DNA of 55,401 bases from the NCBI RefSeq assembly GCF_009695655.1, contig NZ_VUNM01000013.1, positions 1-55,401 of the forward strand, in the 5' to 3' direction. The position numbers and the translations under genes are program-made. Below the pieces are notes generated by a model. That model had not been told where the DNA came from, did no database searches, and worked only from the letters and a program-made list of their open reading frames with translations. The DNA comes from Sharpea porci. Lineage in GTDB: Bacteria > Bacillota_I > Bacilli_A > Erysipelotrichales > Coprobacillaceae. Of this stretch, positions 6,063-13,014 are shown one piece after another. Numbering within the stretch: position 1 is the stretch's first letter; each line of letters starts with the position of its first letter.

Positions 6063-9000
6063 GTTTTAGAGTTGTGTTATTTTGGACTGAACTAAAACTT
6101 GCTATCGTTTCAGTATACATGATACTGAGTTTTAGAGTTGTGTTATTTTGGACTGAACTAAAACTGAAGCATATCCAGCGTTTGGAATCTCGTCGTTTTA
6201 GAGTTGTGTTATTTTGGACTGAACTAAAACACTTGCTGAATTATTTGACGCTACTGTTTTGTTTTAGAGTTGTGTTATTTTGGACTGAACTAAAACAATG
6301 GATGGTTGTCATCGACATGGCGACAAGTTTTAGAGTTGTGTTATTTTGGACTGAACTAAAACTTCTAAAATATCTAGTATAGGAGTTAATCAGTTTTAGA
6401 GTTGTGTTATTTTGGACTGAACTAAAACATGAGTAACCAATATTTATACTTAATAGAAGTTTTAGAGTTGTGTTATTTTGGACTGAACTAAAACGGTATC
6501 CAATAACCTTCATCAAAAGGATAAGTTTTAGAGTTGTGTTATTTTGGACTGAACTAAAACATTGGATAAAGAGTATTTAGAATGGCAGTTGTTTTAGAGT
6601 TGTGTTATTTTGGACTGAACTAAAACGCTGATGAACACGCAACTGGTGTTGTTGGCGTTTTAGAGTTGTGTTATTTTGGACTGAACTAAAACGCCTCTAC
6701 GTTATTATACGTGTTACTCCAGGTTTTAGAGTTGTGTTATTTTGGACTGAACTAAAACTATCTACGATCCTGACGCTGTGGCTCTGTAGTTTTAGAGTTG
6801 TGTTATTTTGGACTGAACTAAAACAGGAGTGAATGTTATGAAACTGACAAGAAGGTTTTAGAGTTGTGTTATTTTGGACTGAACTAAAACAAAACCATAG
6901 GTAATTAAATCAATATCATCGTTTTAGAGTTGTGTTATTTTGGACTGAACTAAAACAAATTGGGCTATCAAACTACTGCGACATTGGTTTTAGAGTTGTG
7001 TTATTTTGGACTGAACTAAAACAAACTACGAAATATACGTTGTCGATAGCAAGTTTTAGAGTTGTGTTATTTTGGACTGAACTAAAACTCCAGTTCCTGG
7101 AACTCTGAACGATGCAGCAGTTTTAGAGTTGTGTTATTTTGGACTGAACTAAAACTGCTATATGAACCAGACAACACAAAACATTGTTTTAGAGTTGTGT
7201 TATTTTGGACTGAACTAAAACTAAGCTGATTGAATACATTGGTTGCACTGTGTTTTAGAGTTGTGTTATTTTGGACTGAACTAAAACAAAACGTGTCGAT
7301 ATCACATCTGTTAATGAGTTTTAGAGTTGTGTTATTTTGGACTGAACTAAAACTTCCAGACATGCTTCCATACGCATATCTTAGTTTTAGAGTTGTGTTA
7401 TTTTGGACTGAACTAAAACAAAAAGCTTATCAGCTATCTTGAAGAAAGGGTTTTAGAGTTGTGTTATTTTGGACTGAACTAAAACGAAGTGGGAGTCGTT
7501 CAGCGAGTCAACTGAGTTTTAGAGTTGTGTTATTTTGGACTGAACTAAAACTGATGGAACACTGAGAGAGTTCCTTACTCTGTTTTAGAGTTGTGTTATT
7601 TTGGACTGAACTAAAACTCATACCAAAAGACCGTGGAAATTATGAATAGTTTTAGAGTTGTGTTATTTTGGACTGAACTAAAACGTCTCATGAAAATCAT
7701 TGACGCAATTGGAAGTTTTAGAGTTGTGTTATTTTGGACTGAACTAAAACCGTATTAGTAAGTTGAATGATGAATTAGTAGTTTTAGAGTTGTGTTATTT
7801 TGGACTGAACTAAAACCCTTAAGTTCCTCAAGCGTGGCACTCATGAGTTTTAGAGTTGTGTTATTTTGGACTGAACTAAAACATAAGATAAGCCGTTATG
7901 GTAGATACATGAGTTTTAGAGTTGTGTTATTTTGGACTGAACTAAAACACCAGCACATAGATTTAATTTAACTGTTGAGTTTTAGAGTTGTGTTATTTTG
8001 GACTGAACTAAAACTTTATATGCCATAAATAGAGTATAATTAAAGTTTTAGAGTTGTGTTATTTTGGACTGAACTAAAACAATAGTACAGAGGAGGAAAC
8101 ATGAACCGAAGTTTTAGAGTTGTGTTATTTTGGACTGAACTAAAACCCTCGTGTACTGTTATTGATTGATGATTACGTTTTAGAGTTGTGTTATTTTGGA
8201 CTGAACTAAAACTTTGCTGTGCAAAATTCACCCCTCACGCCAGTTTTAGAGTTGTGTTATTTTGGACTGAACTAAAACCAGCAAAGAATCTCGTTGATGA
8301 GTCAACCGGTTTTAGAGTTGTGTTATTTTGGACTGAACTAAAACCCTTGGCTTCGTGAACGCCTGGAACAGGCTGTTTTAGAGTTGTGTTATTTTGGACT
8401 GAACTAAAACGATAAGAAGAGCAATCGCAAGCAGCGGAGCGTTTTAGAGTTGTGTTATTTTGGACTGAACTAAAACTTTCAATGTGACTATTGATGATTT
8501 AGTGAAGTTTTAGAGTTGTGTTATTTTGGACTGAACTAAAACGAAGAGGGAGACGAAGTGGGAATGGAGGCAGTTTTAGAGTTGTGTTATTTTGGACTGA
8601 ACTAAAACATATGTCATGTCAAGCTTTCCATGCATTCCGTTTTAGAGTTGTGTTATTTTGGACTGAACTAAAACGGGAATTACCGGAATAGAAGACATAG
8701 GATAGTTTTAGAGTTGTGTTATTTTGGACTGAACTAAAACTCAAGGCGGCGATCCACAAGGCTAACGCCGGTTTTAGAGTTGTGTTATTTTGGACTGAAC
8801 TAAAACATAGAACTCAAAAGCGAAAATATCACTTTAGTTTTAGAGTTGTGTTATTTTGGACTGAACTAAAACAGTGGCATATTGCCAGCTTCTCTTCCAT
8901 CGTTTTAGAGTTGTGTTATTTTGGACTGAACTAAAACACAAGGCTTCTGATATAATTAAGAGACTTAGTTTTAGAGTTGTGTTATTTTGGACTGAACTAA

Positions 9001-9661
9001 AACGAAGGTTCAACAAATATGCTAAAATCAGCAGTTTTAGAGTTGTGTTATTTTGGACTGAACTAAAACACTTCAATAATACGAAACTCAGCTATAAGCG
9101 TTTTAGAGTTGTGTTATTTTGGACTGAACTAAAACAAAAGGAAACCATCAAGCGATTGTATGAAGGTTTTAGAGTTGTGTTATTTTGGACTGAACTAAAA
9201 CTAATTGCTTCACTTTGTTTAGGATTGTCAAGTTTTAGAGTTGTGTTATTTTGGACTGAACTAAAACTTTCTACTTGTTTCATAGACTTAGCCATGAGTT
9301 TTAGAGTTGTGTTATTTTGGACTGAACTAAAACCTCTCGCCGTAATTGAAGTCCCATGTCTCAGTTTTAGAGTTGTGTTATTTTGGACTGAACTAAAACT
9401 AAAAACAGTGAGCCTATATGGATACGAAAGTTTTAGAGTTGTGTTATTTTGGACTGAACTAAAACCGCCTGGTTTATTCAGCGACTTTTTCCGTCGTTTT
9501 AGAGTTGTGTTATTTTGGACTGAACTAAAACTCATTCACGTATTATCTGACGGTACTGTCAGTTTTAGGGTTGTGTTATTTTGGACTGAACTAAAACTGG
9601 GTGATTGTTTTATGAACCCGATTGAACGTTTTAGAGTTGTGTTATTATGGCCGAATAAAAC
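6063..9661 (+). CRISPR. Type II-A CRISPR array, 55 repeats and 54 spacers
   Basis: The 36-nt repeat begins GTTTTAGAGTTGTGTTATTT and ends TGGACTGAACTAAAAC, with self-complementary ends (GTTTTAG/CTAAAAC). Repeats 1-53 look identical. Repeat 54 (9562-9597) has one A-to-G change (GTTTTAGGG), and repeat 55 (9628-9661) is degenerate and two bases short, marking the trailer end. Spacers are 30 nt except two of 31 nt (7089-7119, 7618-7648) and one of 29 nt (8873-8901), giving a near-perfect 66-nt period. Leader position, the decayed last repeat and similarity to the S. pyogenes repeat all put transcription on the plus strand. Confidence 0.99.
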
Positions 9662-9954: not shown

Positions 9955-10041
9955 ATGTTTATGCCTATTTTTACTCAAGAAATTGCCATTATCGATGCAC
10001 TTGCTTACAAGGCAAAAGAAAAGATGTACGATAAGTTATAG
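9955..10041 (+). CDS. Small ORF directly upstream of fic, unknown
   Basis: ATG at 9955 (or 9961) opens a 28-codon frame ending with TAG 10039-10041, 13 bases before the fic start. The peptide ends ALAYKAKEKMYDKL and is helix-prone. It has no clear ribosome-binding site. It may be a remnant of a longer protein, a leader peptide, or chance. Its place just before fic recalls small antitoxins of class I Fic pairs, but the Fic protein here is class III with its own inhibitory helix, so an antitoxin role is not supported. Confidence 0.3.
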   Translation: MFMPIFTQEIAIIDALAYKAKEKMYDKL

Positions 10042-10054
10042 AAGGAAAAACAAG

Positions 10055-10660
10055 ATGACATTAAATAATAAATTGGGTATCACTGATTCTGTTGAATTAG
10101 CTAAAGTGGAAGAAAGGATCAGTAAAAGAAAAGCAGTAGAACTCTTTGAAAGTGGCATTTTAGATGGTCTTGAGCCTGGAACTTTTCAGTCATTAGTTGA
10201 AATACATAAATACTTGTTTGGGTCAATTTATGATTTTGCAGGAAAGATAAGATCTGTTAATATCGCAAAAGGTCATTTTCGTTTTGCCCCAGTTATGTAT
10301 TTAGAAGCAGCATTACAAAATATCGAAAAAATGCCCCAATCAACCTATGATGAAATCATAGAAAAATATGTAGAAATGAATATTGCCCATCCTTTCCGTG
10401 AGGGAAATGGAAGAAGTACGAGAATATGGCTTGATTTGATTTTGAAAAAAGAACTGGGACAGGTTGTCGATTGGAGTTGTGTAGATAAAGAGGACTATCT
10501 TTTATCTATGGAACGTAGTCCCATTAGAGATATTGAAATCAAATATATTTTAAGACAAGCGTTGACAGATAAAATTAATGACCGTGATGTTTATATGATA
10601 GGTATTGATTGTAGCTATTATTACGAAGAATATACAACATTTAAGACGAGTGAGCTTTAA
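10055..10660 (+). CDS. fic: Fic family protein adenylyltransferase (class III, NmFic-like)
   Basis: A 201-aa enzyme expected to transfer AMP (or another nucleotide moiety) from a nucleotide onto hydroxyl side chains of target proteins. The active-site motif HPFREGNGRSTR (residues 112-123) is complete, with catalytic H112, metal-binding E116 and phosphate-binding R120/R123. Upstream, GHFRFAPVMYLE forms the target-binding flap. In class III Fic proteins a C-terminal helix with (S/T)xxxE(G/N) blocks ATP; here it reads S187-YYY-E191-E192, so the blocking Glu is kept but the following Gly/Asn is Glu. The start at ATG 10055 has GAAGG upstream and removes a 24-residue extension. It lies alone between the array and the MazG-like pair. 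Housekeeping targets such as gyrase are known for some homologues, but the target here is unknown. Confidence 0.92.
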   Translation: MTLNNKLGITDSVELAKVEERISKRKAVELFESGILDGLEPGTFQSLVEIHKYLFGSIYDFAGKIRSVNIAKGHFRFAPVMYLEAALQNIEKMPQSTYDEIIEKYVEMNIAHPFREGNGRSTRIWLDLILKKELGQVVDWSCVDKEDYLLSMERSPIRDIEIKYILRQALTDKINDRDVYMIGIDCSYYYEEYTTFKTSEL

Positions 10661-10730
10661 GGACAATATTTCTGTTAACTGAACAAGTTATAAGAAGGCA
10701 ATAATCGAATCTCTTTCTTTTCGTTCTTAT

Positions 10731-10738
10731 GTTATACT
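10731..10738 (+). promoter_or_regulatory. Extended -10 promoter for the MazG-helicase pair
   Basis: TGTTATACT (10730-10738) is a TGn-extended -10 element, 28 bases before the ATG at 10766. No clear -35 is present. The same TGTTATACT string occurs before the GH2 gene (39340-39348) and the MATE gene (44833-44841). Confidence 0.5.
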
Positions 10739-10765
10739 TAGGATAGTTGTTTGGAGGAGAATGTG

Positions 10766-11080
10766 ATGGATGAAATACAAGCATTAATTAATAAATTTGT
10801 GAATGATAGGGATTGGGATCAATACCATCAGCCAGAGAAGCTAGCAATGTCTATATCGATAGAAGCAGCTGAACTGCTTGAACATTATCAATGGGGATAT
10901 GATGGTGATGAGCAGGGTGTAAAGGAAGAATTAGCTGATGTTCTTATTTATTGTTTTCAGATGTGTGACAAGATTGGTGTAAGAGCTGATGATATCATTA
11001 AGATGAAAATGAAGAAGAATGAAGAAAAGTATCCAGTTGAGAAAGCTAGAGGAGTAGCTACAAAGTACGATAAGTTATGA
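10766..11080 (+). CDS. MazG-like nucleotide pyrophosphohydrolase
   Basis: A 104-aa all-alpha NTP pyrophosphohydrolase of the MazG/dCTPase (RS21-C6-like) group, which cleaves (d)NTPs to monophosphates and pyrophosphate. The metal-binding signature is visible as EAAELLEHYQW followed by EELADVLIYCFQMCD, i.e. ExxE then ExxD. The start ATG 10766 has a strong GGAGGAGA upstream. The last bases overlap the nuclease-helicase ATG (ATGA), so the two are coupled. Such enzymes usually clean the nucleotide pool; the partner here suggests a role in stress or anti-phage response. Substrate unknown. Confidence 0.87.
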   Translation: MDEIQALINKFVNDRDWDQYHQPEKLAMSISIEAAELLEHYQWGYDGDEQGVKEELADVLIYCFQMCDKIGVRADDIIKMKMKKNEEKYPVEKARGVATKYDKL

Positions 11081-12945
11081 TTATTTATAAAGAAAGTAAG
11101 AAACAGTTTATTGCAGATGTTTTCAATGATTGTATTGAAGAAAAAATCAATAATCAGATGATTGAAAAAATGCATCGACATACAGGAAAAGCAGAATATC
11201 GTTCATGGGCGAATAGTATGCAATACATGTACAAGGTGATGGATACAGATAGTATTCCTGATGATGTTGATGTTGCAATTGAATATCGTATTCCTAACTC
11301 AAACAAAAGAGTTGACTTCATTGTGGCAGGAGAAGGTGAAAATGGTGAAGAGAATGCTGTTGTGATTGAACTGAAGCAATGGCAAAGTGCTCAGAGAGTG
11401 ACGGATAAGAATGGACTTGTAAGAACTATATTAGGGGGTTCTTTAAGAGAAACAACGCATCCTTCTTATCAAGCTTGGTCCTATGTTTCTATGATCCAGG
11501 ATTATAATGAAGATGTAAGAAAATATCATATTGACTTAGAACCATGTACCTACCTTCATAATTATATAAGAACAGAAAATGATCCTTTATTAGATCGTAT
11601 TTATTACTACTATACAAGAAGAGCACCTGTCTTTATGAGAGGCGATGCTTTAAAACTAAGAGAATATATTACAAAATATATTAAGAAAGCCAATAATAAA
11701 ACACTTTATGAAATAGAATTTGGTCGTATTAAACCATCAAAGTCCTTGCAAGATACAATGGTCAATCTATTAGCTGGCAAAGAAGAATTTAAACTGATTG
11801 ATGAACAAAAGGTTATTTTTGAACAGGTTTTGTCTCTTGCAAAGCTCAATGACAATAAAAAGCGAACAGTCATTATTCATGGCGGACCTGGTACAGGCAA
11901 GTCTGTTTTAGCCATTAATTTACTGGCAAAGACAATGGGTGAACTTGCAAGCAACAGCATGTATGTCACAAAGAACATGGCACCCCGTAGTGTATATAGT
12001 GAAAAACTCCAAGATGGTAATTATCGTAAAACAACAATAGATAACTTATTTAAAGGTTCGGGGTCTTTTATTGATACCCCTTCAAATTTCTTTGATAGTT
12101 TGTTTATTGATGAAGCACATCGATTAAATGGTAAGAGTGGCTTATATTCTAATAAAGGTGAAAATCAGGTTAAAGAGCTTATTAATGCAGCTAAGCTTTC
12201 AGTATTCTTTGTTGATGATCACCAACAAGTTACTTTAAAAGATATTGGTTCAACAGAAGAAATCATGAAATGGGCTAATTTTTATCATACAAGTATTTAT
12301 GAATATACACTTGCATCACAATTTCGATGTAATGGTAGTGATGGTTATTTAAACTGGATTGATGATGTTTTAGAGGTACAACCAACTGCTAATGATGTCT
12401 TTGATTTAGATTATGATGTGAGGGTCTATGATGATCCGAATGAAGTTTATCAAGAAGTTTTAAAACATAATGATAATAATAAGGCAAGAATGGTTGCTGG
12501 ATATTGTTGGAACTGGATTAAAGATGGAAAGGGTGATAGCTCAGTACATGATATAGAGATACCAGAATTTGATTTTGGTATGTCATGGAATTTAGGCTCT
12601 ACTTCTACATGGGCGATAGATAAAGACTCTGTTAGCGAGATAGGTTGTATTCATACTTGCCAGGGATTAGAGTTTGACTATGTAGGTGTAATTATTGGTG
12701 ATGATATGCGCTATGAAGATGGGCATATTGTGACAGACTTTACAAAACGTGCTACCACAGATCAATCATTACGTGGAATCAAGAAACTTTATAAAGAACA
12801 TCCAGAAGAAGCATTGAAAAAAGCGGATCGTATTATAAAGAATACTTATCGCACATTGCTGACGAGAGGACAAAAGGGCTGTTTTATATTCTGTACAGAT
12901 AAGGCTTTATCTCAATATCTCAAAATGCGTCTAGACAATAAATAA
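11077..12945 (+). CDS. PD-(D/E)XK nuclease fused to DUF2075-type helicase domain
   Basis: A 622-aa two-part protein. The N-terminal part (about 60-105) contains KRVDFIV and VVIELKQW, giving D80, E98 and K100 of a PD-(D/E)XK nuclease core. The C-terminal part (about 240-620) is a P-loop NTPase of the DUF2075/Schlafen-like helicase type: Walker A GGPGTGKS with K275, Walker B SLFIDEAHRL with D345/E346, then ASQFRCNGSDGY and IGCIHTCQGLEFDYVGV, like the late SF1 motifs. It overlaps the MazG-like gene by four bases and ends at a strong terminator. An ATP-driven nucleic-acid motor with a nuclease suggests processing of foreign or damaged DNA. The activity is inferred from motifs only. Confidence 0.85.
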   Translation: MIIYKESKKQFIADVFNDCIEEKINNQMIEKMHRHTGKAEYRSWANSMQYMYKVMDTDSIPDDVDVAIEYRIPNSNKRVDFIVAGEGENGEENAVVIELKQWQSAQRVTDKNGLVRTILGGSLRETTHPSYQAWSYVSMIQDYNEDVRKYHIDLEPCTYLHNYIRTENDPLLDRIYYYYTRRAPVFMRGDALKLREYITKYIKKANNKTLYEIEFGRIKPSKSLQDTMVNLLAGKEEFKLIDEQKVIFEQVLSLAKLNDNKKRTVIIHGGPGTGKSVLAINLLAKTMGELASNSMYVTKNMAPRSVYSEKLQDGNYRKTTIDNLFKGSGSFIDTPSNFFDSLFIDEAHRLNGKSGLYSNKGENQVKELINAAKLSVFFVDDHQQVTLKDIGSTEEIMKWANFYHTSIYEYTLASQFRCNGSDGYLNWIDDVLEVQPTANDVFDLDYDVRVYDDPNEVYQEVLKHNDNNKARMVAGYCWNWIKDGKGDSSVHDIEIPEFDFGMSWNLGSTSTWAIDKDSVSEIGCIHTCQGLEFDYVGVIIGDDMRYEDGHIVTDFTKRATTDQSLRGIKKLYKEHPEEALKKADRIIKNTYRTLLTRGQKGCFIFCTDKALSQYLKMRLDNK

Positions 12946-12951
12946 TTTAGT

Positions 12952-13012
12952 AAAAAAGATAACTCTTTGGAGATTACAAGCAAAAGACTTGTGTCTTAGA
13001 GTTATCTTTTTT
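12952..13012. terminator. Bidirectional intrinsic terminator
   Basis: The outer stem AAAAAAGATAACTCT (12952-12966) pairs perfectly with AGAGTTATCTTTTTT (12998-13012). An inner hairpin CAAG-caaaaga-CTTG sits in the loop. It has A- and T-runs on both sides and serves the convergent genes ending at 12945 (plus) and 13015 (minus). Confidence 0.9.
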
Positions 13013-13014
13013 GA

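Follow-up and report, generated by a model that had tools for sequence, protein, structure and literature searches.

A MazG-like pyrophosphohydrolase and a nuclease-helicase fusion behind a CRISPR array of Sharpea porci form a candidate anti-phage module

Behind a CRISPR array of Sharpea porci lie two overlapping genes, one encoding a MazG-like nucleotide pyrophosphohydrolase and the other a large protein that joins a nuclease-like region to a helicase; does this pair protect the cell against phages, or does it belong to a DNA repair pathway? By the window we mean the whole stretch of DNA analyzed, 55,401 nucleotides long, in which the pair comprises the following features.

10708..10765, plus strand: putative promoter with ribosome-binding region, kept ahead of three Sharpea MazG copies
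10766..11080, plus strand: MazG-like nucleotide pyrophosphohydrolase, 104 aa, recognized by PF12643, catalytic residues and PDB relatives
11077..12945, plus strand: nuclease-helicase fusion, 622 aa, recognized by its PF09848 match and invariant residues
11077..11766, plus strand: N-terminal domain resembling PD-(D/E)XK nucleases, aa 1-230, from invariant residues and model alignment
11860..12900, plus strand: SF1 helicase domain, aa 262-608, from PF09848 and the UvrD, SLFN11, RecD2 and Dda folds
12951..13013, plus strand: intrinsic terminator hairpin with a U run, from its fold energy

The coordinates, the frames and the ATGA overlap of both genes, as given by an earlier sequence-only reading of this DNA, were correct on re-check, as was the distance of 1.1 kb to the array, which ends at about position 9660; its last repeat (9633-9661) is degenerate and marks the array end distal to the cas genes. 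A terminator of their own had also been claimed, and a strong hairpin followed by a U run is indeed present at 12951-13013 (-25.4 kcal/mol, z -6.0), which probably also serves the converging gene of the opposite strand; a simple terminator scan missed it because the loop limit of the scan is 8. The claim of an own promoter stood only in part: a consensus scan upstream of MazG gave none above chance, while a TATACT-containing segment is kept ahead of MazG at three copies from two genomes of Sharpea (alignment, blastn extent), making a promoter ahead of the operon plausible.

The host genome (2.5 Mb) is close to that of Sharpea azabuensis, and in the window the pair is preceded on its 5' side by cas9, cas1, csn2, the CRISPR array and a Fic gene. 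The sister species, whose array is of type II-A, keeps the pair at the same place behind the array, between it and a hydroxylamine reductase (prismane family) gene and with no Fic gene intervening; the two fusions are 93% identical. S. azabuensis also encodes a second copy of MazG (98% identity to the window MazG) with Fic and then cas9 behind it, so that an intact MazG-Fic pair stands immediately 5' of cas9. The Fic gene (within window 10026-10660 and within 7052-8041 of locus L231) is of the NmFic type and matches PADLOC PDC-S04 at 6e-102. In the window it is preceded by a remnant of the MazG 3' end and spacer (24/24 nt, 10026-10049) which, together with the MazG-Fic arrangement of S. azabuensis, indicates that a MazG-Fic unit was rearranged within Sharpea. 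The idea that the operon has Fic as its third gene was rejected, because Fic is absent beside the S. azabuensis pair and follows the second MazG copy there.

The larger protein had been read as a PD-(D/E)XK nuclease core joined to a DUF2075-type P-loop NTPase. The second half of this assignment holds: PF09848, formerly DUF2075 and now named 'SLFN-g3_helicase' in Pfam, matches aa 262-608 over its entire profile (1-354/354, E=4.7e-102), and this part aligns structurally with UvrD, SLFN11, RecD2 and Dda. K275 of Walker A and D345-E346 of Walker B, as well as the proposed nuclease residues D80, E98 and K100, are where they were said to be and are invariant in 37 relatives of 50-93% identity. E69, Q132 and Y136 are also invariant in this alignment, and Q132xxxY136 fits the QxxxY of RecB-like members. 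A Pfam search with aa 1-230 returned no match, and Foldseek with the nuclease domain only gave nothing significant. The model of this domain (pLDDT 89) aligned best with VC1899, Can2, Cdn1, Card1, EndoMS, MspJI and Shedu, all of which we take to be PD-(D/E)XK enzymes; the Z scores, from 7.1 to 4.3, are moderate, and the best chains are nearly all PD-(D/E)XK nucleases. On this modelling, the N-terminal part resembles a PD-(D/E)XK nuclease. In locus L072 (5787-9629) there are two fusion genes, the first shortened to 442 aa, with a MazG and a 97-aa ORF between them.

The identity of the MazG-like protein was confirmed by PF12643 (E=1.1e-19, 70.9 bits vs a cut-off of 27), its nearest solved structures by sequence being 4qgp, a pyrophosphatase, and dCTP pyrophosphatase 1. 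The ExxE/ExxD metal-binding residues E33, E36, E55 and D58 are present, and they are unchanged in 92-93 of 93 relatives, partners of a fusion and stand-alone proteins alike; one sequence departs from this, through a gap in its alignment at E33/E36. Since the active site is kept throughout, its chemistry is probably in use. Many family members stand alone and adjoin ordinary genes; these are probably housekeeping genes, and the partner MazG was thus probably recruited from such stock. The MazG tree requires at least 11 changes, a figure drawn from few alignment columns with weak support.

Two other identities were discarded: a HamA match of MazG in PADLOC (E=0.009) was taken as noise, and a toxin-antitoxin system, as the name MazG might suggest, does not agree with the gene order, which differs from mazEF, nor with the frequent absence of MazG. 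Members of the family also occur in other settings. An N-terminally extended MazG adjoins a GHKL-type ATPase, a DNA methyltransferase and two HTH genes in L234 (715-4978), an arrangement in which MazG may join other defence-like sets; in L243 (5354-7305) a stand-alone MazG is followed by a protein whose start, judged by eye, is similar to Schlafen AlbA_2; and in L240 (5683-6749, minus strand) an N-terminally extended MazG lies beside the pieces of a broken DUF2075 gene, which suggests that the helicase decayed and MazG was kept.

How constant the pairing is was surveyed in 48 loci of named genomes, in loci of relatives and of Bacilli species and in a small number of plasmid and phage records; removal of redundancy left 127 fusion genes. 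In 76 of these 127 loci the fusion has a MazG of the window's family within 1.5 kb, always on the same strand, far beyond the roughly 0.2-0.3% expected by chance from gene density (an estimate; binomial). It is placed directly upstream in 41 loci, directly downstream in 20 and upstream with a gap in 15, most of these gaps containing one further gene. On a FastTree phylogeny of 119 fusion proteins, the placement switched between upstream and downstream at least 10 times, so the link has been kept through rearrangement; the presence of MazG changed at least 23 times, although some of the absences could reflect incomplete contigs. In the remaining 51 of the 127 loci there is no MazG nearby, and the fusion can therefore do without it.

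The fusion itself is patchy, being found in 69 of 395 sampled Bacilli genomes, and homologues also occur on plasmids of archaea and Bacteroidota. Fusion homologues were seen in genomes that read TGA as a sense codon, six of them (L076, L083, L087, L088, L089 and L094) with no nearby MazG and one (L086) with it. The pair of MazG and fusion is also present in L113, a 22-kb record entered as the genome of Microcystis phage Mwe-JY31, and may there be either phage-borne or part of host defence DNA; a scan of viral contigs with a cargo-clade protein (see below) gave no match.

We then asked what lies around the pair. Up to three genes on each side were compared with PADLOC (E<=1e-15), with regions at arbitrary positions, mostly from the same genomes, as controls. 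The genes flanking the pair formed two case sets, of 137 and 135 proteins, which matched 173 and 232 PADLOC models; the control sets (131 and 88 proteins) matched 11 and 47, counts whose direction and size are only rough since they are of redundant models and not of loci. Type II methyltransferase models were matched by 6 and 2 proteins of the case sets, and MkoA, MkoC and GajB models by 2 proteins each. Among the matches listed, type II methyltransferases occur in 8 of 272 case proteins and 0 of 219 controls (p=0.008), the zero being incomplete because 25 of the 47 models of the second control set are listed. Hence the neighbourhood survey proposed with the sequence-only reading yielded neighbours enriched for defence genes relative to random loci, again counted as redundant models; wide conservation outside defence islands, which had been named as refuting a defence role, was not the pattern found, the pair being widespread and its contexts defence-like.

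The same helicase family is found behind different N-terminal domains. A GIY-YIG domain takes this place in the two loci tested, L065 and L082, and the GIY-YIG version is paired with MazG in L065 and in several relatives of that size; in L098 the place is taken by a NERD domain, which is the architecture of PDC-S41, a phage-defence candidate of PADLOC. Moreover, in two clades of Bacilli and Clostridia the slot between MazG and the fusion is filled by unrelated genes with exact boundaries. In the Bacilli clade the MazG and helicase DNA is about 77-90% identical and the intervening gene varies from locus to locus, as follows.

L023: Hypoth_Ymh protein with the HEPN-type Rx4-6H motif
L030: HNH protein
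L033: PF05168 HEPN protein without the Rx4-6H motif
L031, 7093-7986: ORF with no significant Pfam match
L154, 5077-6024: ORF with no significant Pfam match
L153, 7950-8828, minus strand: ORF with no significant Pfam match
L032, 7793-8011: ORF with no significant Pfam match
L043, 7777-7992: ORF with no significant Pfam match
L182, 7944-8156, minus strand: ORF with no significant Pfam match

The six ORFs with no Pfam match are possible undescribed effectors; those of L032 and L182 (71-73 aa) resemble each other. In the second clade, L037 has an AbiU2-HEPN gene that is absent from its relatives L008 and L009, the helicase DNA being 94-95% identical and the 27-nt spacer behind the insert being kept, while the DNA upstream of MazG is unrelated. 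Judged from these alignments, the cargo variation is one of tightly spaced gene exchanges on the same strand. We tentatively suggest, at a little short of an even chance, that the pair is one version of an unnamed modular defence platform in which MazG, depleting nucleotides, and an SF1 helicase headed by PD-(D/E)XK or GIY-YIG would make up the core. The nuclease heads of this platform would be interchangeable, and whole effector genes, for HEPN RNases, HNH nucleases and others, would be swapped through a cargo slot between MazG and the fusion.

Taken together, these results support the earlier proposal of a candidate defence module: the pair is conserved, the fusion patchy, the neighbours rich in defence genes, the heads variable, the cargo of HEPN and HNH kinds, and a sister architecture is found in PDC-S41. 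It is likely, on genomic grounds, that MazG and the nuclease-helicase serve defence as such, and an anti-phage (anti-mobile-element) module is on balance the probable explanation of the pair. This reading draws on the same-strand MazG in 76 of 127 loci, the defence-rich neighbours, the cargo genes and the kinship with PDC-S41, AbiO and Nhi, and equally on the patchy distribution, the plasmid, archaeal and Bacteroidota members and the same CRISPR-side place in the sister species. Counting against it are the 51 of 127 loci with no MazG, the often stand-alone MazG family, the moderate Z of the nuclease fold and an enrichment counted in redundant models. How the labour would be divided among helicase, nuclease and MazG is a more doubtful matter, for which we offer a speculative scheme: the helicase would load at the ends, forks or single-stranded parts of DNA that is foreign or being replicated and, by moving, feed this DNA to the fused nuclease, which would cut phage DNA; MazG would hydrolyse dNTPs, probably dCTP, to dNMP and PPi, and the loss of dNTPs would leave the phage unable to resynthesise the cut DNA; a gene in the slot, such as one for a HEPN RNase or an HNH nuclease, would add a further effector.

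The main rival is DNA repair with sanitation of the nucleotide pool, in which MazG would remove damaged dNTPs and the nuclease-helicase process damaged DNA with no direct anti-phage role. Mycobacterial MazG cleans out 5-OH-dCTP (PMC3855555), the helicase fold is common to UvrD, RecD2 and AdnAB, and MazG family members stand alone in many genomes; however, a presence in 69 of 395 genomes, defence-rich neighbours, swapped nuclease heads and HEPN/HNH cargo would be unusual for a repair pathway, and we regard this explanation as unlikely. Weaker than repair are two readings that keep the defence role and change that of MazG. It could be a regulator, either lowering local NTP or dNTP so that a nucleotide-inhibited nuclease is released or keeping the nuclease-helicase harmless in healthy cells; the existence of fusions with no MazG, which is thus not core, would fit this, as would Gabija, in which nucleotide depletion is tied to activity (PMC11514479). 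Since such fusions are evidently tolerated with no MazG, a strict antidote is disfavoured, and we hold a regulatory MazG to be improbable. Least credible, and very unlikely in our view, is a two-layer defence directed at phages whose cytosine is modified, with MazG destroying modified dCTP and the fusion cutting modified DNA: MazG groups with dCTP pyrophosphatase 1, which accepts 5-substituted dCTP, and the nuclease model aligns weakly with the modification-dependent MspJI (Z 4.4), but MspJI is one among many weak PD-(D/E)XK matches and no base-recognition domain is visible in the fusion.

Should the anti-phage reading be right, an unnamed defence system would couple dNTP destruction to a nuclease-helicase, this coupling being a role predicted for MazG domains and as yet unvalidated. 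The fusion of such a system, often accompanied by MazG, is present in roughly a sixth of the Bacilli genomes sampled and has members in archaea and Bacteroidota. The system would bear on the immune use of a helicase design whose Pfam family takes its name from the human antiviral Schlafen group 3, and it would be natural to look for further effectors in the cargo slot.

The statement that no characterised system has this two-protein set held for the sources searched, none being named in PADLOC-DB 2023, Pfam, NCBIfam or the literature. Among the full texts searched, no paper has both DUF2075 and MazG, though a preprint on bacterial Schlafen defence and a 2015 nucleotide-centric survey, which DefensePredictor cites, may contain a prior mention; going by titles and abstracts, none of the five DUF2075 papers found looks like a defence study. 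MazG/dCTP pyrophosphatase house-cleaning enzymes share family, active-site residues and size with the MazG of the window, but are stand-alone genes and not operon partners of a nuclease-helicase. The full fusion model has Schlafen SLFN11 as its top Foldseek match (E=1e-10), but the global superposition is poor (rmsd about 20 A), and Pfam detected no Schlafen core (AlbA_2) domain in the fusion at E<=1. Gabija resembles the pair in combining a nuclease with a UvrD-type helicase and in its tie to nucleotide levels; it differs in having no MazG and in its nuclease GajA, which is of the OLD/TOPRIM kind and a chain of its own, whereas the window nuclease is fused to its helicase, and neither window protein matches GajA or GajB in PADLOC.

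Nhi and AbiO, which confer phage resistance, are like the window fusion single-chain nuclease-SF1 helicases with related helicase parts (PADLOC AbiO 1.7e-14, Nhi 2.5e-12, covering only about aa 235-419), but have a different nuclease head; we know of no MazG partner for either. PDC-S41 (NERD-DUF2075) likewise joins a nuclease domain at the N-terminus to a helicase of this family, and L098 matches its model PDLC05014 over the full length (E=2e-181). The head of PDC-S41 is NERD and not PD-(D/E)XK, the three long members of our survey have no MazG beside them, and the window fusion matches PDLC05014 in its C-terminal part only (6.4e-17), short of the full length. DefensePredictor (PMC13092281) places MazG among predicted, unvalidated defence domains, and its MazG-containing predicted system may or may not be the pair described here. 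We therefore see the pair as a variant of the nuclease-helicase kind of defence, unnamed in the sources searched, which may be among the DefensePredictor predictions.
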